In this document: piece after piece, positions 4,402-16,550 of the stretch
Layout of the letters: the number at the start of each line of letters is the position of its first letter
How positions within the stretch are numbered: position 1 is the stretch's first letter
Virus record (IMG/VR): IMGVR_UViG_3300020408_000025
Coordinates: 1-30,979 of that record
Source of the DNA: a virus
Strand: one strand, 5' to 3'
Length of the DNA: 30,979 nt
Made by a program: the position numbers and the translations under genes
Notes under the pieces: generated by a model
Told to the model about the DNA's origin: nothing
The model's database searches: none
Seen by the model: the letters and a program-made list of their open reading frames with translations, nothing else

Positions 4402-4587
4402 ATGATTCTCTCTCAAGCGTCACGGATCACAGATCGTCAACGGGTCTGGGTTGCTCGCAACAACGATGACTCCACCTTCGGCACCATTGCATCACGGTGG
4501 GGTTGCAAGTCCTGGGTGCTCGCTGGTGCCTGGAGCAAACGATACAAGGAAGAGGCGATTGCTAAGATCCCCTCCTTTGAAGATTGA
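4402..4587 (+). CDS. Small basic protein, unknown
   Basis: 61 aa (N-terminus MILSQASRITDRQRVWVARN). Contains FGTIASRWGCKSWVLAGAWSKRY at about residues 26-48, a Trp/Lys/Arg-rich stretch that could bind nucleic acid. Weak GGGA 8 nt upstream of the ATG. No family recognised. Confidence 0.65.
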   Translation: MILSQASRITDRQRVWVARNNDDSTFGTIASRWGCKSWVLAGAWSKRYKEEAIAKIPSFED

Positions 4588-4613
4588 GTTTTTTCAAAAA
4601 ACATTTTTTTATC

Positions 4614-4796
4614 ATGGAACATTCTAATCCCTACACCGCTCAGATCATGAGCAAAGGTTATTCTGAAAGTGAGGCACGCCAAGTGTCACCTTCGCTCCGA
4701 AAAGAGCGAACCTTTCCTTGCACTATTGGAGGCAGAGTTTTCCAAACTCAATCAGAATATGATGATGCTCTCCACGATTTTCTCAATGGGATGTGA
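4614..4796 (+). CDS. Small protein, unknown
   Basis: 60 aa from ATG 4614. An in-frame TTG at 4584 would add ten residues but lies in the 3' end of the previous gene. There is no Shine-Dalgarno; the start is preceded by a T tract and ATC, a leader shared with the genes at 5570 and 8140. GGRVFQTQSEYDDALHDFL near the C-terminus looks like an exposed strand followed by an acidic helix. Not recognised. Confidence 0.65.
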   Translation: MEHSNPYTAQIMSKGYSESEARQVSPSLRKERTFPCTIGGRVFQTQSEYDDALHDFLNGM

Positions 4797-4810
4797 CAGT
4801 CCCTGAGGTG

Positions 4811-4847
4811 TCCCGAAAGCGGTTGCGTTCATCCGCAACCGTGGGGC
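4811..4847 (+). terminator. Long GC-rich hairpin without T tract
   Basis: Inner perfect stem CGGTTGCG (4820-4827) / CGCAACCG (4834-4841) with a 6-nt loop. An outer helix pairs TGTCCC (4809-4814) with GGGGCA (4843-4848), with one G-U pair. No T run follows, so it may be a Rho-independent variant, an RNA-stability element or a processing site. Confidence 0.45.
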
Positions 4848-4896
4848 ATCATTCACATAACGGCGAAACAACTCACGCCGCTCCTTCTATAACATC

Positions 4897-5412
4897 ATGT
4901 CTAATTTCACTCTTCAGCAACTCAACGACACTCTCGAAGAAGTGATTCATGCTCAGAATGTTCTGACTGAATCTGTGAAGACCATCGCAGTTTCTCTCGC
5001 TAAGATGGAAACTATCAAGAGTGAAAAGGAACAACAGGAAGATACCTGGGATGACTTCATTACAAAGGAAATGTCTGATTTCCTGGTTGAGTTCTACCCT
5101 GAGACTGCAAATTATGTCTCGGAAAATGTTGTAAAGACATTGCAACTGTGCCGCACTCATGGTGATTATCGGTCGTTGCGTCCGACTTATTTTCGATACA
5201 ATGCCTCTAAGAATCTCAAGGTTCGTCAGATGCTGAAACTAATATCTGCTGCGGATCGTATGAAGTTCTTCGGCAAATTTGCACACAGAAGTTATCACAA
5301 AGCATATCTTTATGTGCTGAAGAGTCAGATCAAATATGCAAAAGCATGTCCTGAATGTGGCATGATTGCAAACAAGATCTGGGATCGCATGGAGAAGGAA
5401 AGCATCATCTGA
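4897..5412 (+). CDS. 171-aa protein with C-terminal CPEC, unknown
   Basis: 171 aa. Residues about 5-45 are predicted coiled coil (LQQLNDTLEEVIHAQNVL and following). The C-terminal two-thirds is basic, with a CPEC pair near residues 155-158 that may coordinate metal or form a disulfide. No Shine-Dalgarno; the start is preceded by CATC. A long structured leader-like region follows. Not recognised. Confidence 0.7.
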   Translation: MSNFTLQQLNDTLEEVIHAQNVLTESVKTIAVSLAKMETIKSEKEQQEDTWDDFITKEMSDFLVEFYPETANYVSENVVKTLQLCRTHGDYRSLRPTYFRYNASKNLKVRQMLKLISAADRMKFFGKFAHRSYHKAYLYVLKSQIKYAKACPECGMIANKIWDRMEKESII

Positions 5413-5414
5413 TA

Positions 5415-5504
5415 GTGTAGGCAGCACAGTATTCAGCGTAAGACCTACACATAGAGAGGCAAAACAGTAAGAGAGATCGATAAACAGATCTACGCCTCTC
5501 TTAC
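5415..5504 (+). promoter_or_regulatory. Structured region with mutually exclusive stems
   Basis: Three perfect pairings are visible. GTGTAGG (5415-5421) pairs with CCTACAC (5444-5450). AGAGAGGC (5453-5460) pairs with GCCTCTCT (5494-5501). GTAAGAGAG (5467-5475) pairs with CTCTCTTAC (5496-5504). The last two share the same 3' strand and cannot form together. This is the architecture of an attenuator or riboswitch-type leader upstream of the gene at 5570, although no known class is recognised. Confidence 0.45.
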
Positions 5505-5569
5505 ACATATAAGGGAGAAAACTGTGGGGAGGAGTATTCTTTCCCATTTTTGTTGTTGAATTTTTGATC

Positions 5570-5716
5570 ATGAGTCTTTCACAAAAACAAATTCAGTGGC
5601 AACATGCTTTCTATGAATGGCATTTACATCAGACAGATGATACTGCTGCTGATGAACTGAAAGCACGCAAACAGTTGTTATCAATAATTCGGGAGAATCG
5701 TAGGAAGAAACAATAG
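5570..5716 (+). CDS. 48-aa basic protein, unknown
   Basis: 48 aa (N-terminus MSLSQKQIQWQHAFYEWH), Gln/His-rich then strongly basic at the C-terminus (IIRENRRKKQ). No ribosome-binding site; the start follows a T tract and GATC, as at 8140. It lies downstream of the alternative-stem region, which might control it. No family recognised. Confidence 0.6.
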   Translation: MSLSQKQIQWQHAFYEWHLHQTDDTAADELKARKQLLSIIRENRRKKQ

Positions 5717-5732
5717 TGGACAGTCGGAGAGG

Positions 5733-5774
5733 TGGTATAACAGTCCTGATGCATGGCACTGGTGTCTGTATTAT
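5733..5774 (+). promoter_or_regulatory. Tandem putative promoters
   Basis: TGG-TATAAC (5733-5741) is an extended -10, 10 nt after a GTGGACAGT element (5715-5723, shared with 7214). TATTAT (5769-5774) is followed by TCAAGTTCAAAGCAAC, matching the initial-sequence motif of the other -10-only promoters. It sits 24 nt before ATG 5799. Confidence 0.45.
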
Positions 5775-5798
5775 TAACTCAAGTTCAAAGCAACACCG

Positions 5799-6134
5799 AT
5801 GAACACCCCACAACCCACCAATCTGATCTCCGTCAAGTTCACTCGTGAGCAGTTGTATCAACTGCGAGACATGATCGGCAAGGAGTTCAATCACATGGTG
5901 ACTGCCTGGGTTCCTGTTGGCACCTTCGATAAACAAAAGGATCTTGCTTACGGTATCATCAAGGCAGTTGATGTTGTCATCGGTGTGGAAGACTATCAAA
6001 ACACCTATGGTGATGTTGAGAAGAACCCTTTTGCTCCCACAGTGGTAGAGTTCCTGAAGGATCGTCGCTACTGTGATGATGAGCATCTGGAGCAGCAAGG
6101 TGTAATGTGGAAACCTGAGATTCAGGTTGCCTGA
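5799..6134 (+). CDS. 111-aa protein, unknown
   Basis: 111 aa (N-terminus MNTPQPTNLISVKFTREQLYQLRDMI). The first 65 residues are predicted mainly helical; the C-terminus is acidic then ends in VMWKPEIQVA. No recognised domain. First gene of a coupled five-gene operon running to 7204: its stop overlaps the next ATG (TGATG). Confidence 0.7.
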   Translation: MNTPQPTNLISVKFTREQLYQLRDMIGKEFNHMVTAWVPVGTFDKQKDLAYGIIKAVDVVIGVEDYQNTYGDVEKNPFAPTVVEFLKDRRYCDDEHLEQQGVMWKPEIQVA

Positions 6135-9734: not shown

Positions 9735-9940
9735 TCGTAACCACCAGCGCGAAAAGGACCACAATCAATGGTATGACTCGTGAAGAGATCAACGAGATTC
9801 TTCACCAGTTGCACCAAGAAGAAGCACGAATCAGAACACAGTATCAGACACTGAAGATGATGCGTGATGAGTTAGACAAGCAAACCCAATTCCATCAAGC
9901 AAATGTTAAACAGTTCACCGAATCGCTCACTCCTCAATGA
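9731..9940 (+). CDS. Coiled-coil protein, GTG start
   Basis: 69 aa from GTG 9731 (overlap GTGA with the previous stop). Residues about 20-65 are a strong coiled coil (INEILHQLHQEEARIRTQYQTL...). No function assigned. Its 3' end overlaps the next gene by 38 nt in a different frame. Confidence 0.65.
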   Translation: MIVTTSAKRTTINGMTREEINEILHQLHQEEARIRTQYQTLKMMRDELDKQTQFHQANVKQFTESLTPQ

Positions 9941-10085
9941 GATCCAGAAACTTCGATCAGAGCGTGAACAACATCTTCAACAAGCAAAAATCTGCACCAG
10001 TTGCATCTATGAACTCTCACTTCTCATCCAAAAACAGAACAATGAAACAGAACATCGAGGCGCAATTATTACATACGATTCATAA
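9903..10085 (+). CDS. Coiled-coil peptide in overlapping frame
   Basis: 60 aa from ATG 9903, in a third frame between two neighbours. Residues about 10-50 (LLNEIQKLRSEREQHLQQAK...) look like a genuine charged coiled coil, with two close cysteines at CTSC. The competing frame over the same DNA (from ATG 9937) is Ser/Asn-rich and looks like a shadow. It is also possible that this is the continuation of the 9731 gene through a frameshift, since both are coiled coils. Confidence 0.5.
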   Translation: MLNSSPNRSLLNEIQKLRSEREQHLQQAKICTSCIYELSLLIQKQNNETEHRGAIITYDS

Positions 10086-10245
10086 TCTGGAGGCAGCACT
10101 CAATGTTTGCAACAATGCGGACAACACCAGTGATGATGACGATCGTAGTTATCCTTTCGCTACTGGTTATGCTAAATCAGCAATGACAACATCAGTAGAA
10201 GATCTAGAGAAGGTTCTTCACTATCTACGGGCACAAGTATCATGA
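10042..10245 (+). CDS. Small protein, unknown
   Basis: 67 aa from ATG 10042; the same frame is open from ATG 9937 (102 aa), but the extra 35 residues overlap the better-looking coiled-coil frame. The C-terminal part (SYPFATGYAKSAMTTSVEDLEKVL) resembles small unassigned cyanophage proteins I recall. Stop overlaps the next ATG (ATGA). Confidence 0.55.
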   Translation: MKQNIEAQLLHTIHNLEAALNVCNNADNTSDDDDRSYPFATGYAKSAMTTSVEDLEKVLHYLRAQVS

Positions 10246-10319
10246 ACGATACAAGGAAACTTATCATCGTCTATGTTACTTTATGCTTCGTTGCTTCCAT
10301 TATTCTGATCCTACAATGA
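10242..10319 (+). CDS. 25-aa membrane peptide
   Basis: 25 aa, coupled by ATGA at both ends. Short charged head (MNDTRK) then one hydrophobic helix (LIIVYVTLCFVASIILIL). The perfect fit between the neighbouring overlaps is the main evidence of coding. Function unknown. Confidence 0.5.
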   Translation: MNDTRKLIIVYVTLCFVASIILILQ

Positions 10320-10483
10320 CTCATCGTAACTACACTGACAAACAACAAATTGAAGAGTTTGATGGTGACTGGGATGATCTAGTTTTACCTGAAGAATATC
10401 TAGAGATCTTAGATAGGAAAAGGTTCAATCAATCCATGGGTAAACCTGCATGGGATGGTATTCAAATTAAAAGAAAAGAGTAA
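10316..10483 (+). CDS. Small acidic protein, unknown
   Basis: 55 aa from ATG 10316, coupled to the membrane peptide by ATGA; an upstream in-frame start at 10283 would overlap the peptide gene by 37 nt. Acidic middle (EEFDGDWDDLVLPEEYLE) and basic C-terminus (IQIKRKE). No family recognised. Confidence 0.6.
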   Translation: MTHRNYTDKQQIEEFDGDWDDLVLPEEYLEILDRKRFNQSMGKPAWDGIQIKRKE

Positions 10484-10495
10484 TTGAAAAGAATA

Positions 10496-10519
10496 TGTGC
10501 CAATAGTTTTAGTGGCACA
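10496..10519 (+). terminator. Hairpin without T tract
   Basis: TGTGCCA (10496-10502) / TGGCACA (10513-10519), perfect 7-bp stem with 10-nt loop, 12 nt after the stop codon at 10481-10483. No T run follows. Confidence 0.45.
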
Positions 10520-10547
10520 ATAAATGAGCACTGGGATCTGATTCATG

Positions 10548-10571
10548 TATATTAAAAGAGTCAAAGCAACG
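10548..10571 (+). promoter_or_regulatory. Putative -10 box with TCAAAGCAAC leader
   Basis: TATATT (10548-10553), preceded by TG, then TCAAAGCAAC (10561-10570), a decamer also found in the leader of the gene at 5799. Precedes ATG 10582 by 28 nt. Confidence 0.4.
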
Positions 10572-10581
10572 AACCTGCATC

Positions 10582-10791
10582 ATGACAATCATCTCCGACA
10601 ACATTCGTGCAATCGCTCTTCTCCACCGCATCAATGGTTGCAAGGTTGAAGACAACGAAGGCAATCAATATAGTGTTGTTGATGTTAAGTATTTCAATGG
10701 ATCTGTTTCGTGGATCGGATTGAAAAATGTCGATGGTGATGTTAAGTATGCCACTCTTGATTGTTATATGGAGATGGCATCAGTTGGATAA
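10582..10791 (+). CDS. Small protein, unknown
   Basis: 69 aa, start preceded by CATC without Shine-Dalgarno. Predicted small beta-barrel-like pattern (CKVEDNEGNQYSVVDVKYFNGSVSWIGLKNVDG). No family recognised. It is the last gene before the large noncoding region. Confidence 0.65.
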   Translation: MTIISDNIRAIALLHRINGCKVEDNEGNQYSVVDVKYFNGSVSWIGLKNVDGDVKYATLDCYMEMASVG

Positions 10792-10864
10792 TTTGTTCGT
10801 CCTTATGTACCGAAAACAAGCAAAAACATGCTCAAAACACATAAAAAACGATTAAAAATGTGTT

Positions 10865-10957
10865 TATAAATATGTTTCGCTTTTTTATTGTAGAGTAACC
10901 CCATGGATACTACACAGTGTCTGTGGGGTATCTTTATGCCTGTTTTTAGTGTTTTTT
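10865..10957 (+). ncRNA. Putative late small RNA
   Basis: TATAAATA (10865-10872) is a perfect T4-type late promoter with no gene downstream. A hairpin follows: ACCCCA (10898-10903) / TGGGGT (10924-10929), with an inner GATAC / GTGTC helix and 6-nt loop. Two T tracts lie at 10934-10957. The order promoter, hairpin, T tract suggests a short untranslated transcript. No known RNA family recognised. Confidence 0.35.
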
Positions 10958-11072
10958 AAGTGTTAGAAACCTCCCGAAATGTGCTGAGGTCTTGTGGTCT
11001 TAGCGCCCCACCTATGAGGATGTCAAGTATTATCCCCATACCCCCACATAAAATTTCTGAAAACTTAAAATT

Positions 11073-11101
11073 TTGATATTTCTGAGGTTTTATGATATAA
11101 T
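11073..11101 (+). promoter_or_regulatory. Sigma70-type promoter
   Basis: TTGATA (11073-11078), 17-bp spacer, TATAAT (11096-11101), with an extended -10 TG at 11093-11094. Close to consensus for a host-type promoter. The -10 is inside one arm of the inverted repeat at 11090-11148. Confidence 0.65.
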
Positions 11102-11148
11102 GACATCATGAGTTTCTAACACAAACTCTCCGAGAGTTTATATCATAA
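11090..11148. repeat. Nested inverted repeats over a promoter
   Basis: Outer arms TTATGATATAA (11090-11100) and TTATATCATAA (11138-11148), 11 bp perfect. Inside is a 17-bp palindrome AAACTCTC-C-GAGAGTTT (11123-11139). A competing pairing GAGTTT (11110-11115) / AAACTC also exists. The outer left arm contains the promoter -10. Confidence 0.6.
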
Positions 11149-11247
11149 TTTCAGATTGTTACAGATATACCATACTCCATCTTAGATCATAATGGGGACA
11201 GTCTGTCAAGCGGTTTCAGGACACTTTGAGAACTGTCCTTGATACTA

Positions 11248-11276
11248 TTGACAGCATTATGTCAAGCACTTGTAAT
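11248..11276 (+). promoter_or_regulatory. Sigma70-type promoter
   Basis: Consensus TTGACA (11248-11253), exact 17-bp spacer, TGTAAT (11271-11276). The -35 is one arm of a TTGACA / TGTCAA inverted repeat (second arm 11260-11265), which could be an operator. Reads toward the gene at 11596. Confidence 0.6.
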
Positions 11277-11295
11277 GACTTGTAACAAACAAAAA

Positions 11296-11320
11296 GTTCT
11301 ACCTCCATCCTAGCACGCTA
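11296..11320. repeat. Duplicated upstream block, part 1, copy 1
   Basis: 25-nt sequence beginning GTTCTAC and ending TAGCACGCTA; matches 12765-12789 at 22 of 25 positions. Lies upstream of the gene at 11596 as the other copy lies upstream of the gene at 12887. Confidence 0.8.
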
Positions 11321-11533
11321 CGGGACTCGATCCGCCAGCGGTGGACACTTTAAGAACTGGCACAAGGTCGCTGGACAAGGTGGATCAGGGCATGGTAGAT
11401 TAGAGATAGAATCTTTTATAAAATAATTCCTTGCAGGTTCCGTGACGACCATTTCATCATCAGGGTTACCCCACCCCTCGTTCGATTGTGCCCTTATCCT
11501 ACAGCATCAGCAGCAGCAAACCACTGAGCATCA

Positions 11534-11576
11534 CGGAATCGAAACAATCGGTCACATAGCGGGTTTGTGTCGGTTT
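11534..11576. repeat. Duplicated upstream block, part 2, copy 1
   Basis: 43-nt sequence beginning CGGAATCGAAACAATCGG and ending TGTCGGTTT, identical to 12815-12857 except one base. Here it is 213 nt after part 1; in the second copy it is 25 nt after. Confidence 0.9.
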
Positions 11577-11595
11577 ATTAACACTGTTGTCCCGA

Positions 11596-11862
11596 GTGAC
11601 TGACATAGGGCAAGAATGGTTGCAGTTCCGATTCAGACCAATGCAAAAAACACTTGCCGAGTTGATCGCCAGTATTGCTGACGATAATGGTTGCATTCCC
11701 TACGATCTCGCATTCAACCTTGCATCACTACAGGGCGAGTCAGTGGCAATAGATTTTGTTGAAGTGTATGGGATCGCCGCTAGTTGGTCGATGGGCGTGG
11801 ATCTGGGCGAATTCTTAGTTTGGGTCAACCAATCGGCAGAGGGTCACTATGGGTCCTTGTGA
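11596..11862 (+). CDS. Protein sharing its N-terminus with the GP88-like gene
   Basis: 88 aa from GTG 11596; GTG is chosen because it aligns with the ATG of the gene at 12887, whose upstream DNA and first 18 codons are duplicated here (MTDIGQEWLQFRFRPMQK against MTDTEREWFQFRSRSMLK). After residue 18 it is unrelated: a helical region (LAELIASIADDNG...) and an acidic C-terminus. Looks like a chimera made by recombination through the shared 5' block. Function unknown. Confidence 0.6.
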   Translation: MTDIGQEWLQFRFRPMQKTLAELIASIADDNGCIPYDLAFNLASLQGESVAIDFVEVYGIAASWSMGVDLGEFLVWVNQSAEGHYGSL

Positions 11863-11907
11863 TCCCTGAAAAAATTTAAGACCATTAGTTCAACCGTAAT
11901 TCACTCC

Positions 11908-12222
11908 ATGCCAGCACAAACTAAACTCAAAAATCAATCAATCATTGAAACAATCGGGCAACAATTAGTCGATGATCTCTACAGTTTAGTTAAATATTCG
12001 CACGAATCTTTAACTTTAGAACTGCATGAATACCACGAAAATTGCATCAATGAGCGTGAAAATGCACGCACTAGCGAAAAACTAAAATTTAAAGAATTAT
12101 TTAATTTAATCGTCAATTCCGAGTTGCAAGATATATACGAAAGTTTGCAGGATTATTCACAAAAAGCGGTTCGCAATTATGTGAGAGACGTTTACCCTGA
12201 CTGGCGCGATTCAATGGTTTAA
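11908..12222 (+). CDS. Helical protein, unknown
   Basis: 104 aa (N-terminus MPAQTKLKNQSIIETIGQQL). Predicted almost wholly helical with many Glu, His and Asn. The codon choice is A/T-richer (TTA Leu, AAA Lys) than in the genes of the first 10 kb, suggesting a different recent origin. No family recognised. Followed by the repeated hairpin at 12235. Confidence 0.65.
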   Translation: MPAQTKLKNQSIIETIGQQLVDDLYSLVKYSHESLTLELHEYHENCINERENARTSEKLKFKELFNLIVNSELQDIYESLQDYSQKAVRNYVRDVYPDWRDSMV

Positions 12223-12234
12223 TTAACATTTAGC

Positions 12235-12261
12235 GGGGGCGATTTCGCCCCTTATTCTTTA
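12235..12261 (+). terminator. Repeated hairpin terminator, copy 1
   Basis: 16-bp palindrome GGGGCGATTTCGCCCC (12236-12251) followed by TTATTCTTTA. The 27 nt are repeated exactly at 12717-12743. Strong stem but an imperfect T tract. Confidence 0.7.
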
Positions 12262-12265
12262 CACT
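12260..12265 (+). promoter_or_regulatory. Putative -10 box (TACACT)
   Basis: TACACT then TTCAACC, 19 nt before ATG 12285, immediately after the hairpin terminator. Weak alone but it fits the terminator-promoter fusion pattern. Confidence 0.35.
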
Positions 12266-12284
12266 TTCAACCGCACTTTTTATT

Positions 12285-12698
12285 ATGTCCGTTACTCGCC
12301 AACTTTCAAAGTACACTTTGGAGTGGAATTCTTATTCTCAATTCGCCCCAGATGCAACACCACGTCGAGAAGGTGGAATTTACACACAAAAAGTGAAAAT
12401 CTACGCCGTGGGAGATTATACTTTCGAGGTTGAATTTAAAGTCGGTGAGTGGAGAACCTTGGGGATTTTATTTGCTAAGGTCACAACAATCGATAATTAC
12501 AACAACGTGTCAGAATTAAACTATAGTTTCGGGGAGTTTAGGACAGATGAGGGTGCGATGTTGTTCGCGCAGTTTGCACTTAACCGCTTCATTGAGTCGG
12601 AACGATGGGATGTTTGCCCGTCATTCCAGGCGATAGAGTATATCAACGGCGACCCATATACGCTCTCTGGCGACGAGATAGTGACCGGACTTATTTGA
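12285..12698 (+). CDS. 137-aa protein, unknown
   Basis: 137 aa (N-terminus MSVTRQLSKYTLEWNSYSQF). Predicted beta-rich in the first half (GGIYTQKVKIYAVGDYTFEVEFKVG) and helical after about residue 90 (GAMLFAQFALNRFIE). Not recognised. Flanked on both sides by the same 27-nt hairpin repeat, so it forms a cassette bounded by direct repeats. Confidence 0.7.
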   Translation: MSVTRQLSKYTLEWNSYSQFAPDATPRREGGIYTQKVKIYAVGDYTFEVEFKVGEWRTLGILFAKVTTIDNYNNVSELNYSFGEFRTDEGAMLFAQFALNRFIESERWDVCPSFQAIEYINGDPYTLSGDEIVTGLI

Positions 12699-12716
12699 TA
12701 GTAAGTTACACTTAAT

Positions 12717-12743
12717 GGGGGCGATTTCGCCCCTTATTCTTTA
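12717..12743 (+). terminator. Repeated hairpin terminator, copy 2
   Basis: Exact 27-nt copy of 12235-12261. A degraded third version follows the next gene at about 13684-13715. Confidence 0.7.
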
Positions 12744-12764
12744 TATTTTTACCAGGAAAAATAG

Positions 12765-12789
12765 GTTCTACTTTCATCTTAGCACGCTA
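12765..12789. repeat. Duplicated upstream block, part 1, copy 2
   Basis: Matches 11296-11320 at 22 of 25 positions. Confidence 0.8.
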
Positions 12790-12814
12790 AATTTGAACAT
12801 AAATCACTAAGTTG

Positions 12815-12857
12815 CGGAATTGAAACAATCGGTCACATAGCGGGTTTGTGTCGGTTT
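12815..12857. repeat. Duplicated upstream block, part 2, copy 2
   Basis: Matches 11534-11576 at 42 of 43 positions. Its end runs into 10-bp tandem units of the form CGGTTTGTKT: three here, two in copy 1. Confidence 0.9.
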
Positions 12858-12886
12858 GTTTCGGTTTGTTAACGTTGTTATGCAGA

Positions 12887-13675
12887 ATGACTGACACAGA
12901 GCGAGAATGGTTTCAGTTCCGATCCAGATCGATGCTTAAGTTCTCCAAGGGTAACGCCAAACTAGGGAAGCAAACTTTGATCTTCAACCTGCCTGCTGGA
13001 AAGACGTGTCCTGGCGCGTCCCTGTGCAAAGCATTCGCCGTAATGGGTGACAACGGAAAAACACGGATTCAGGATGGTCCTGAGACTGTTTTCCGATGCT
13101 TTGCTGCTAGTAGCGAAGCGCAATATCCTGCGACGTTTGCTGCCCGTGCTCATAACCTGCAGACAATCGTGGAAGCATTGCGCGATGGAATCGATGTGGC
13201 AGCAATTATGATCAACGAATGTATTCAAAATTACCGTACTAGATCTACTAAACTCGTAAGAATTCATGAGTCTGGTGATTTTTTCAGTCTCGCTTATTTG
13301 AGAGCATGGATTGCAGTTGCCAAACTTAATCCTGACCTTAAATTCTATTGCTACAGTAAATCTCTTGACTTATTTGTTAATGAAGAATTGCCATCTAATT
13401 TTTATCAAACTGCGTCATATGGTGGTAAGTTCGACTACTTAATCGATGAAGGATTCTTTACTCGTTACAGTAAAGTTGTTATGAATGATAATGAGGCGGA
13501 AGAATTAGGTCTTGAGGTTGACCATGACGATTCACACTGTTTCGGTGACAAACCCTTTGCACTTTTAGTTCACGGAACACAACCTAAAGGATCAATCGCT
13601 GCCGCTAAGTTAAAGGAACGGAAGCGTAATGGTGCGTTCTCAGGTTACAACAGCAAAAACAAAGTGGCAGCATAA
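12887..13675 (+). CDS. GP88-family protein
   Basis: 262 aa from ATG 12887; the frame is open from 12848, but that stretch is the duplicated noncoding block. NLPAGKTCPGA at residues 34-44, RIHESGDFFS at 125-134, FYCYSKS at 153-159 and a C-terminal LLVHGTQPKGS match what I recall of the phage 'Gene product 88' family (PF17338), whose function is unknown. Conserved Cys, His and Asp residues suggest a metal- or radical-type enzyme, but that is inference. The first 18 codons and upstream DNA are shared with the gene at 11596. Confidence 0.7.
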   Translation: MTDTEREWFQFRSRSMLKFSKGNAKLGKQTLIFNLPAGKTCPGASLCKAFAVMGDNGKTRIQDGPETVFRCFAASSEAQYPATFAARAHNLQTIVEALRDGIDVAAIMINECIQNYRTRSTKLVRIHESGDFFSLAYLRAWIAVAKLNPDLKFYCYSKSLDLFVNEELPSNFYQTASYGGKFDYLIDEGFFTRYSKVVMNDNEAEELGLEVDHDDSHCFGDKPFALLVHGTQPKGSIAAAKLKERKRNGAFSGYNSKNKVAA

Positions 13676-13887
13676 TTAACACTTAGGGGGGTGATTCTCT
13701 CATTCCTTTCATACCCTCCCACCTAAATTTGCGCCTTTAAAAAATAATAAATTCCTTGTTTTATTGTTTAGTTCGTATTAAAATTATTGTGTAATCTTCG
13801 TTGAGTTCTTTATATCGACAATCACAATCGTCGTTTATATCTTAATTCTAATTAATTAGCGGGGTGCGCCATTGTACCTAACCCGTC

Positions 13888-14071: not shown

Positions 14072-14222
14072 ATCAAAATATATCAAATAGCAGTGTTTTT
14101 ATGTTTTTTATATTTTGCCCCGCCCCCCTTAGCGGGTTAAAAAACAATGGGTCCCCGTAACCTACAACGAACCCAAATCGACCTCTAAATATCAAGCACA
14201 AAAAAAATTCTGAGATATAAAA

Positions 14223-14411
14223 ATGACTTCCGAAACCCCTGCAGACAAAAAAATTCCGCCAGTAGAAAATCCCACTGTACCCTCTAGCGGTAACGATAGA
14301 GTTTATTTGATACTAAGTCTCGTAGCTTGTTTTTGTTTTACCCTACTGATTATTGCGGCGGGATATCATCATGGGCACATGAGCATTTCGGCGGTATTCA
14401 AGAATCTATGA
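14223..14411 (+). CDS. 62-aa single-pass membrane protein
   Basis: 62 aa. A Pro-rich polar N-terminus (residues 1-26) is followed by one hydrophobic helix (about 27-47, VYLILSLVACFCFTLLIIAAG) and a short tail with YHHGHM. No Shine-Dalgarno. Could be a small virion- or membrane-associated protein. No family recognised. Confidence 0.6.
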   Translation: MTSETPADKKIPPVENPTVPSSGNDRVYLILSLVACFCFTLLIIAAGYHHGHMSISAVFKNL

Positions 14412-14442
14412 GGATATATAATGAGAGGAGGGCGTATGGACT

Positions 14443-14592
14443 ATGAAAATCGCAATAGACAACTACGAAAGAGAACTATTGATAGATACTCTTGAATATC
14501 GCATATACAACGACGAAAGATTAATTCGTGATGCGGGGATGAAAGAAGATCTCACATACTTATTGGAGAAAATTGTAGATGAATACTTATAA
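14443..14592 (+). CDS. 49-aa acidic protein
   Basis: 49 aa from ATG 14443. GGAGGG at 14426-14431 lies 11 nt upstream, long but usable. The ATG at 14436 in another frame reaches a stop after 19 codons. The sequence (YERELLIDTLEYRIYNDERLIR...) resembles a small helical protein I recall from cyanophages and closely matches its typical length. Function unknown. Overlaps the next gene by 14 nt. Confidence 0.6.
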   Translation: MKIAIDNYERELLIDTLEYRIYNDERLIRDAGMKEDLTYLLEKIVDEYL

Positions 14593-14746
14593 CATTTCAC
14601 ATCAAGGTATAATTATATTTCGTAGAATACCTGAGAAGGATGTGGAGAGTCATAGAGCAGCGATCAAGAATTTTATATGGATGGGAAGTAGTGGAAAAGG
14701 TATGGAGAAGATAGAAGAAGATATTGAGGTGACACTAAATACTTGA
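14579..14746 (+). CDS. 55-aa protein, unknown
   Basis: 55 aa from ATG 14579, overlapping the previous gene by 14 nt. N-terminus MNTYNISHQGIIIFRRIPEK, then a helix and an acidic C-terminus. Charge pattern and position argue for coding; no family recognised. Confidence 0.5.
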   Translation: MNTYNISHQGIIIFRRIPEKDVESHRAAIKNFIWMGSSGKGMEKIEEDIEVTLNT

Positions 14747-14773
14747 GTAACCATTGCATGATTTGACTTGCGG

Positions 14774-14782
14774 TGGTATAAT
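14774..14782 (+). promoter_or_regulatory. Extended -10 promoter (TGG-TATAAT)
   Basis: Consensus -10 with extended TG, 23 nt before ATG 14806. A TTGACT lies only 8 bp upstream of the -10, as TTGAC does at 7222. Confidence 0.6.
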
Positions 14783-14805
14783 GTATTTGTCACTTATTTG
14801 TTTTC

Positions 14806-15552
14806 ATGGCTAAAGGATTTACGGTAAAGACCGCTGCGCCAAAGAAGAAGGTAGAAGAGTTCGACCTAGCAGCAGCGAGAGAAATGATTCGTGGTAAGGC
14901 AATTGTTTTTTGTCTACCTGGTAGAGGATGTTCTTACACATTCTTGAAATCTTTTGTACAACTTTGTTTTGATCTGGTACAGAACGGAGCGAGTATTCAG
15001 ATCTCACAAGATTATAGTTCCATGGTGAACTTCGCACGCTGCAAGTGTCTTGGTGCGAATGTATTGCGTGGTCCTTCACAGAAACCATGGGATGGCAAAC
15101 TTCCTTATGACTATCAACTATGGATTGATAGTGACATCGTGTTTGATGTCGAGAAGTTCTATCGGTTAGTTGCGATGGATAAGGATATTGCCGCTGGTTG
15201 GTATTGCACTGAGGATGGACGCACAACTTCTGTCGCCCACTGGTTAGAGGAAGGCGATTTCCGTCAGAATGGCGGTGTGATGAATCATGAGACCTTAGAG
15301 TCGATCAGCAAGCGTAAGAAACCATTCACAGTTGATTACACTGGTTTTGGCTGGGTTCTGATTAAGCATGGAGTCTTTGAGAGTCTGCCTTATCCGTGGT
15401 TCGCTCCGAAGATGCAAACCTTCGAATCAGGGGAGGTCCAAGATATGTGTGGAGAGGATGTGAGTTTCTGTCTGGATGCGATTGAGAAGGGTTATGAGAT
15501 CTGGTGTGATCCTGTGATTCGTGTGGGGCATGAAAAAATGCGCGTTATCTGA
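14806..15552 (+). CDS. Glycosyltransferase-like (GT-A type) protein
   Basis: 248 aa. An N-terminal strand (KAIVFCLPGR, residues 31-40) is followed by a helix. LWIDSDIVF with D108-S-D110 is a DxD metal/nucleotide-sugar motif. GEDVSFCLDA (216-225) gives an acidic motif at the usual catalytic-base position, and CDPVIRVGH (234-242) a closing His. This order is typical of GT-A glycosyltransferases. Similar proteins occur near the baseplate genes of cyanophages. It may decorate virion proteins or a host sugar; the sugar is unknown. Confidence 0.65.
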   Translation: MAKGFTVKTAAPKKKVEEFDLAAAREMIRGKAIVFCLPGRGCSYTFLKSFVQLCFDLVQNGASIQISQDYSSMVNFARCKCLGANVLRGPSQKPWDGKLPYDYQLWIDSDIVFDVEKFYRLVAMDKDIAAGWYCTEDGRTTSVAHWLEEGDFRQNGGVMNHETLESISKRKKPFTVDYTGFGWVLIKHGVFESLPYPWFAPKMQTFESGEVQDMCGEDVSFCLDAIEKGYEIWCDPVIRVGHEKMRVI

Positions 15553-15818: not shown

Positions 15819-16550
15819 ATGTCAAGACTGATCACTAACTTACCAGCAGTTCATACTTGGGTTCGTAAAGAATATCTTTGTGATCACGAGTATGGACATG
15901 GTGAATTTGTAAAAGGCATATGGATCGCTGCTAAAAGTCTTCCTGGGCGTGCCTTTTACTTTGAAACATATCTACCAGATTATGCGGCAATGTTTGATAA
16001 GTTGCCGATTTCTGCCTTTGTAGCAGAACCAGAGACACCAGACCCCGATCTAGACCTCCCTAACCTGCAGTTTTGGAACTGTATGGACCATGATGTCACT
16101 ACACTGTGTAAGCAGCATGTAGGGTCAATGGAGTGGGAGATACGCACTCGTCATTTTGGTACAATGAAAGGTGAATATATTTGCACCTTAGACAATTATC
16201 ACGGCGATCCAGACATCATTGACTATTCAACCAGTGAACTTCCAAGTGAACACAAGTCATTTAACTTGATTGAACTGTACAATGGTCAGTATGCACTGTA
16301 TCCAAATAACAGATGTCGCATCTATGACATCTCATTAACTCCAGAAGACCCCAAGATACCTGACTTTAAAGTTTCTACTGAGTTTTATCAAGTAGAGAAT
16401 GGTGTATCTTGGGGTCGTTTAGGTGATTGTGACGATTATTTCTGGACAACACCCGGAGAGAGGGAAGAATACCCACAAAATAAATACGATTCGAGGGATG
16501 GCAACCCCTTAAAAAGTTCTGATTCAACTGATCAGGAGACAAATGGGTAA
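15819..16550 (+). CDS. 243-aa cyanophage protein, unknown
   Basis: 243 aa. N-terminus MSRLITNLPAVHTWVRKEYL; a strand-rich central part with FYFETYLPDY and many Asp/Pro turns (PETPDPDLDLPNLQFWNCMD). Position and composition suggest a conserved cyanophage protein near the baseplate cluster. No domain recognised. No Shine-Dalgarno; the start sits directly behind a hairpin. The last 8 nt overlap the next gene. Confidence 0.7.
   Translation: MSRLITNLPAVHTWVRKEYLCDHEYGHGEFVKGIWIAAKSLPGRAFYFETYLPDYAAMFDKLPISAFVAEPETPDPDLDLPNLQFWNCMDHDVTTLCKQHVGSMEWEIRTRHFGTMKGEYICTLDNYHGDPDIIDYSTSELPSEHKSFNLIELYNGQYALYPNNRCRIYDISLTPEDPKIPDFKVSTEFYQVENGVSWGRLGDCDDYFWTTPGEREEYPQNKYDSRDGNPLKSSDSTDQETNG

Follow-up and report, generated by a model that had tools for sequence, protein, structure and literature searches.

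The virus record IMGVR_UViG_3300020408_000025, which we analyzed over its whole 31 kb (30,979 nucleotides; the window), belongs to a freshwater T4-like cyanophage and, in the explanation to which we give a probability of about two in three, contains a gene-exchange locus in which genes lie behind repeated terminator-promoter leaders and a lineage-specific leader has been duplicated. The window carries gp25-, gp6-, gp7-, and gp8-like genes at 16.8–31 kb in synteny with Synechococcus phage S-SRM01, and the duplicated leader region sits in a variable stretch upstream of the gp25-gp6-gp7 baseplate genes; the promoter-like site, leader blocks, hairpins, and genes described here between 11073 and 13675 are on its plus strand. 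The original prediction had proposed a recombination platform with a fixed upstream sequence and N-terminal tag and an exchangeable protein body. Relatives bear out the retention of upstream DNA and the exchange of the protein body at this same locus; the fixed N-terminal tag and the role of a 43-nt block as a general platform do not survive.

Direct evidence for a conserved leader with an exchanged body comes from comparisons involving relatives, the closest of which are metagenome contigs in which assembly errors at repeats are possible. The window and the contig L177 are 87% identical over 9858–11510 and 86% identical over 14124–15434, whereas between 11510 and 14124 L177 has a single DUF7178 gene and the window has ORF73, ORF104, ORF137, and a GP88-family gene. 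Contig L094 shares with L177 a 255-nt leader, 81% identical and ending at the ATG, behind which lies a DUF7227 gene in L094 and the DUF7178 gene in L177, after which homology resumes. Similarly, L009 and L177 have in common a leader that is 91% identical over 101 nt and a final 34 nt, ATG included, that are 85% identical, but L009 has GP88 behind it and L177 has DUF7178. GP88, DUF7178, and DUF7227 are distinct Pfam families. Gene differences flanked by homology in the first two pairs, together with the leader of L009, argue for an exchange locus.

The element that recurs before many genes, including those behind the 101-nt leader, was overlooked in the original prediction. It is a leader element of ~85 nt, here called element C (11419–11505; consensus TTATTTTATGGCAGGNNNNGTGGCGA...hairpin...TTGT-N5-TANNNTA; E=4.8e-19 with a covariance model), found by matching the region upstream of the first leader copy to many GP88-containing contigs. 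Its hairpin (GGGT / TACCCC loop / ACCC, 11463–11476) has a 4-bp stem and a 6-nt loop, with 94.3% of cells paired over 66 diverse aligned copies and a stem covariation score of 0.923, versus 0.195±0.031 in shuffled and ≤0.21 in slid controls, and RNAalifold recovers the same stem unprompted. The 3' columns, T(0.80) A(0.99) N N (A/C) T(0.98) A(0.99), read like a sigma-70 -10 box, represented in the window by TATCCT(A) at 11495–11501, and the identity between the window and L177 ends at 11510, 9 nt beyond this box. Upstream of element C, T-runs occur in 97 of 146 copies (10 expected) and perfect GC-rich stems in 55 copies (7 expected). Hairpin covariation, the -10-like columns, and these upstream T-runs and stems are consistent with the exchange-locus explanation, and element C is a putative promoter. 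Since its consensus has the hairpin and a CCCCTC stretch, and no -35 hexamer, 17 nt upstream of the -10 box, it may not be an ordinary one.

Element C is both widespread among related phages and narrowly placed within each. An iterated profile search returned 152 distinct copies (~80 nt) in the fetched loci, an exact pattern scan found it in at least 120 viral contigs, and among phage records it matches Synechococcus phages only. In every genome with at least two copies, all copies lie within about 8 kb: six within 7.7 kb in a 224-kb and again in a 258-kb genome, four within 2.8 kb of a 208-kb genome, and two within 1.6 kb in S-SRM01 (241 kb), at 88.6 and 90.1 kb and both between annotated genes. 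When mapped gene by gene in S-SRM01 and L207, the cluster lies immediately upstream of a phrog_1574 gene, which is followed by the baseplate genes. Such clustering in one stretch is unlike a genome-wide promoter class. The proteins behind the 140 copies with a downstream ORF form 69 sequence clusters, with GP88, DUF7178, and DUF7227 among them, an upper estimate because ORF calling was crude (in the window it took ORF104 and not ORF73). Element C was found within 500 nt upstream of 9 and within 600 nt downstream of 46 of 100 GP88 genes, and is thus not tied to one gene. Copies within a locus resemble one another more than copies across loci do (0.688 versus 0.634; 0/1000 permutations, with kinship of whole genomes remaining in the permutation). 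The diversity of proteins behind element C, the clustering of its copies in each genome, and the likeness of copies within a locus also support reading this region as a site of exchange.

Other identities for element C were considered. Against a short coding ORF, most of the copies inspected have a broken frame, and 118 genome matches that might have indicated host sequence cover only the core pattern, at chance level. Rfam gave no match at E<1 for the copies in the window, L018, L029, L030, L007, or L022, and a single opposite-strand match at chance level for the L085 region. An integron-type array pairs a folded recombination site (attC) with a tyrosine recombinase; element C does have a hairpin with a covarying stem, and inspection of the genes annotated near the S-SRM01 locus revealed no recombinase. 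We advance only tentatively the possibility that cyanomyoviruses have in element C a dedicated leader, specific to this locus and dependent on its structure, such that every incoming gene would acquire or bring a copy, the hairpin would be needed for expression or recombination, and the array would form a built-in exchange slot by the baseplate genes. Two individual copies deserve mention: in L129 (78–190) the 3' end is partly tandem-duplicated, matching window positions 11433–11489 and again 11475–11510, a second leader duplication in this group of loci, and in L207 (15064–15135) a copy lies on the opposite strand within the cluster, apparently ahead of a gene on that same strand, as a promoter-like element would.

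Within the window, the duplicated leader consists of three blocks of 33, 43, and ~49 nt that occur twice, both times in the order A-D-E. Motif A (TTCTACCTCCATCCTAGCACG, 11285–11320) includes the 25-nt block described originally and returns at 12757–12789 (82% identity over 33 nt, and 88% over the part 11296–11320/12765–12789). Block D, of 43 nt, is found at 11534–11576 and 12815–12857 with 42/43 positions identical (E=1e-17), and block E at 11596–11640, directly ahead of the ORF73 start codon, and at 12887–12931, ahead of GP88, with a core (11597–11637/12888–12928) that is 88% identical. The homology also reaches farther upstream of D than first noted (11518–11528/12801–12811). The block coordinates and identities of the original prediction are correct, and the duplication is far beyond chance, with a best ungapped score of 40 between the two leader regions compared to ≤10 in 40 dinucleotide shuffles. 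The 43-nt block is better conserved than the remaining leader (mismatches 1/43 versus 14/64; Fisher p=0.004). The copies differ in architecture: the distance from A to the D homology is ~197 nt in copy 1 and 11 nt in copy 2, and an extra 10 nt separate D from E in copy 2. The additional ~190 nt of copy 1 contain motif B and element C, and element C precedes only one of the two duplicated-leader genes, on the ORF73 and not the GP88 side. Motifs A and B are themselves dispersed, A with 81 matches in 53 loci and B (GGACACTTTNAGAACTGGCACA, 11343–11364, with another copy at 11219–11238), a short intergenic motif, with 187 matches in 100 loci on both strands. Some copies of motif B (GGACACTTTNAGAACTG...) form a perfect inverted repeat, GGACA/TGTCC.

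The genes between and behind the two leaders are of different kinds. ORF73 (11641–11862), a small gene of unknown function with no Pfam or PHROG match, has tblastn relatives at 42–45% identity from residue 1 in L043, L192, L047, L048, and L055, and these are found in other phages, ~3 kb downstream of GP88. It is a real gene with its own family and not a decayed GP88, to which it has no similarity; the original prediction had likewise called this body unrelated. ORF104 (11908–12222) has no matches in other loci, and ORF137 (12285–12698) has relatives 49–55% identical, located downstream of GP88 in S-SRM01 (QPX48149) and L024. The positions of the ORF73 and ORF137 relatives downstream of GP88 elsewhere indicate that gene order has been shuffled at this locus, which again favors the exchange-locus explanation. 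The GP88 gene (12932–13675), of unknown function, belongs to PF17338 (E=4.7e-45; 154.7 bits, with a curated cut-off of 24.4) and is 71% identical to QPX48144 of S-SRM01. An identical 27-nt stretch follows ORF104 (12235–12261) and ORF137 (12717–12743), with an intrinsic-terminator-like hairpin at 12235–12252 and 12717–12734, respectively, and a weaker relative follows GP88 (13673–13691), so that repetition extends from the leaders to the gene ends.

Block D, in contrast to element C, is known from this one contig. The 43-nt sequence had no matches in viral contigs, in 84,980 prokaryote genomes, in 203 other loci, or in phage records. The collection scans used exact 19–31-nt cores, which diverged copies could escape, and a profile search, run on the fetched loci, was more sensitive. 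Because the block is absent from all collections searched, it does not itself constitute a widespread platform, and the lack of matches in the prokaryote genomes speaks against a host origin. The proposed listing of the proteins behind each copy gives only two bodies, both in the window, and one of these is ORF73, so the block is not confined to the front of GP88 genes. Any role of D-E in exchange thus rests on two copies. A 53-aa ORF (11442–11603) that would make D coding crosses element C, whose length shifts by single bases between relatives, and it is therefore not conserved coding sequence. A 14-nt match to D within ORF104 (11944) is close to what chance would give (E about 0.02), no tRNA or tRNA fragment was found as a source of the repeat, and Rfam had no match at E<1 over D-E in the window.

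The strong conservation of D may reflect a binding site for a phage regulator, or an RNA leader, copied in front of co-regulated genes, with recombination irrelevant to that conservation. This is possible but doubtful as a full account. Inspection of the sequence shows a potential 9-bp pairing, TGTGTCGGT/ACTGACAYA, in each copy, and a 12-bp helix can close the fold of copy 2; in copy 1, however, two positions of that helix are mismatched, and the folding of D-E is unexceptional (z -1.2 and -1.9). A regulatory site is in any case compatible with an exchange locus, and the two are not mutually exclusive.

An ordinary tandem duplication, in which a leader-GP88 unit was doubled and the first GP88 then replaced, would make the identity of D-E a matter of recent descent and require no platform. 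The presence of just two copies in a single contig fits this account, as does the 22% divergence already accumulated in the E part. We consider it unlikely, since no GP88 remnant lies behind copy 1, where ORF73 has its own family, the mismatches in D (1/43) beside those in E (14/64) are uneven for simple descent (p=0.004), and relatives exchange whole genes behind the leader at the same locus. A small MITE-like mobile element inserted twice would likewise leave two near-identical intergenic copies, but this is highly improbable, as neither terminal inverted repeats nor a target-site duplication was seen, no further copies occur in the viral or prokaryote collections, and in each copy homology continues across A-D-E as far as the start codon.

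The supposed 18-codon N-terminal tag common to different protein bodies, for which one can cite that both frames are open across the shared stretch, is contradicted by the start codons and has next to no remaining probability. GP88 begins at ATG 12932, matching the annotated start codon of the S-SRM01 gene, and its relatives have an ATG at residue 1 in 71 of 102 cases and an in-frame stop fewer than 17 codons upstream of the start in 44 of 99. ORF73 begins at ATG 11641, and the alignments of its five relatives start at residue 1, where each has an ATG. Moreover, seven of the eight differing codons in the stretch are nonsynonymous, and the 10-nt length difference between D and the supposed codons breaks any common frame. 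The stretch is an untranslated leader and so provides no fixed N-terminal tag. A leader motif ahead of the ATG, TCAAGCGGTTCCGACCC, was found before GP88 only.

In the exchange-locus explanation, the intergenic regions would be ordered as a terminator-like hairpin and T-run followed by a leader with element C and/or motifs A and B. Because such leaders are repeated both inside one genome and across genomes, the phage's own recombination can use them as short homologies, and genes would thereby be gained, lost, and reordered, each arriving gene keeping or gaining a ready leader. The likeliest history of the window is that the ORF73-ORF104-ORF137 DNA entered by recombination through the leader and left one leader copy on each side. 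The near-identity of block D probably reflects a regulatory function or homogenization by recombination.

Among known systems, the exchange locus appears most readily analogous to the promoter early stem-loop cassettes (PeSLs) of T4-type phages (Arbiol et al., 2010; Comeau et al., 2014, as summarized in PMC4503421). According to that summary, PeSLs are small repeated intergenic cassettes, promoter-like with a stem-loop, that precede diverse non-core genes in variable regions and are regarded as mediators of shuffling in T4-like phages. Element C, compared with PeSLs by description, is similarly intergenic and repeated before diverse genes in a gene-shuffling region, and combines its covarying hairpin and -10-like box with the upstream T-runs. 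Unlike PeSLs as described, it has a conserved loop on a covarying stem between the terminator-like hairpin and the -10 box, lacks the -35 of T4-type early promoters, and is confined to one locus in the genomes examined. These differences of structure, -35, and distribution make it a PeSL analogue rather than a member of that class. T4 early and middle promoters have a -10 in which A at position 2 and T at position 6 are almost invariant, and many precede novel ORFs (PMC1524935); the -10 of element C shares both positions, but its consensus has neither the GTTTAC-like -35 of the early promoters nor the MotA box of the middle promoters.

A precedent for repeated intergenic sequences acting as viral promoters is the tailed halovirus HF2, in which such repeats lie before different genes and showed promoter activity in a reporter assay (PMC8707807). 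As presented there, the HF2 repeats are archaeal promoters and keep their positions across the genus; the genes behind the element C leader, by contrast, are exchanged. The abstract of that study reports no covarying hairpin, which element C has. A text search of the S-SRM01 paper (PMC8557907) found no mention of promoters or intergenic regions. The mechanism by which T4-like cyanophages acquire and swap genes has been called unclear, with PeSLs unlikely there and judged not to explain gene gain in cyanophage S-PM2 (PMC4503421). A conserved leader that has a covarying hairpin, is restricted to a single exchange locus, and stands before different genes offers a concrete and testable candidate for such swapping, and element C provides both a marker for finding these loci in metagenomes and a way of listing the exchanged genes (GP88, DUF7178, DUF7227, and others).

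Further observations concern the surroundings of the locus. The best sigma-70 consensus match of the region is a promoter-like site at 11073–11101 (TTGATA-17-TATAAT with TG ahead of the -10; 11/12 by consensus match only), present with the same sequence in L177. About 20 nt past it lies a palindrome, AAACTCTCCGAGAGTTT (11123–11139), also kept in L177. At 15819–16550 the window encodes a phrog_3704 protein, annotated as ferredoxin, with a weak, below-cut-off Pfam match to a beta-trefoil domain that is probably meaningless. Two ORFs at the edge of the L207 cluster (4461–5914) are, we presume from their N-terminal sequence, GIY-YIG-type homing endonucleases. The S-SRM01 cluster contains an annotated HNH endonuclease (QPX48145).
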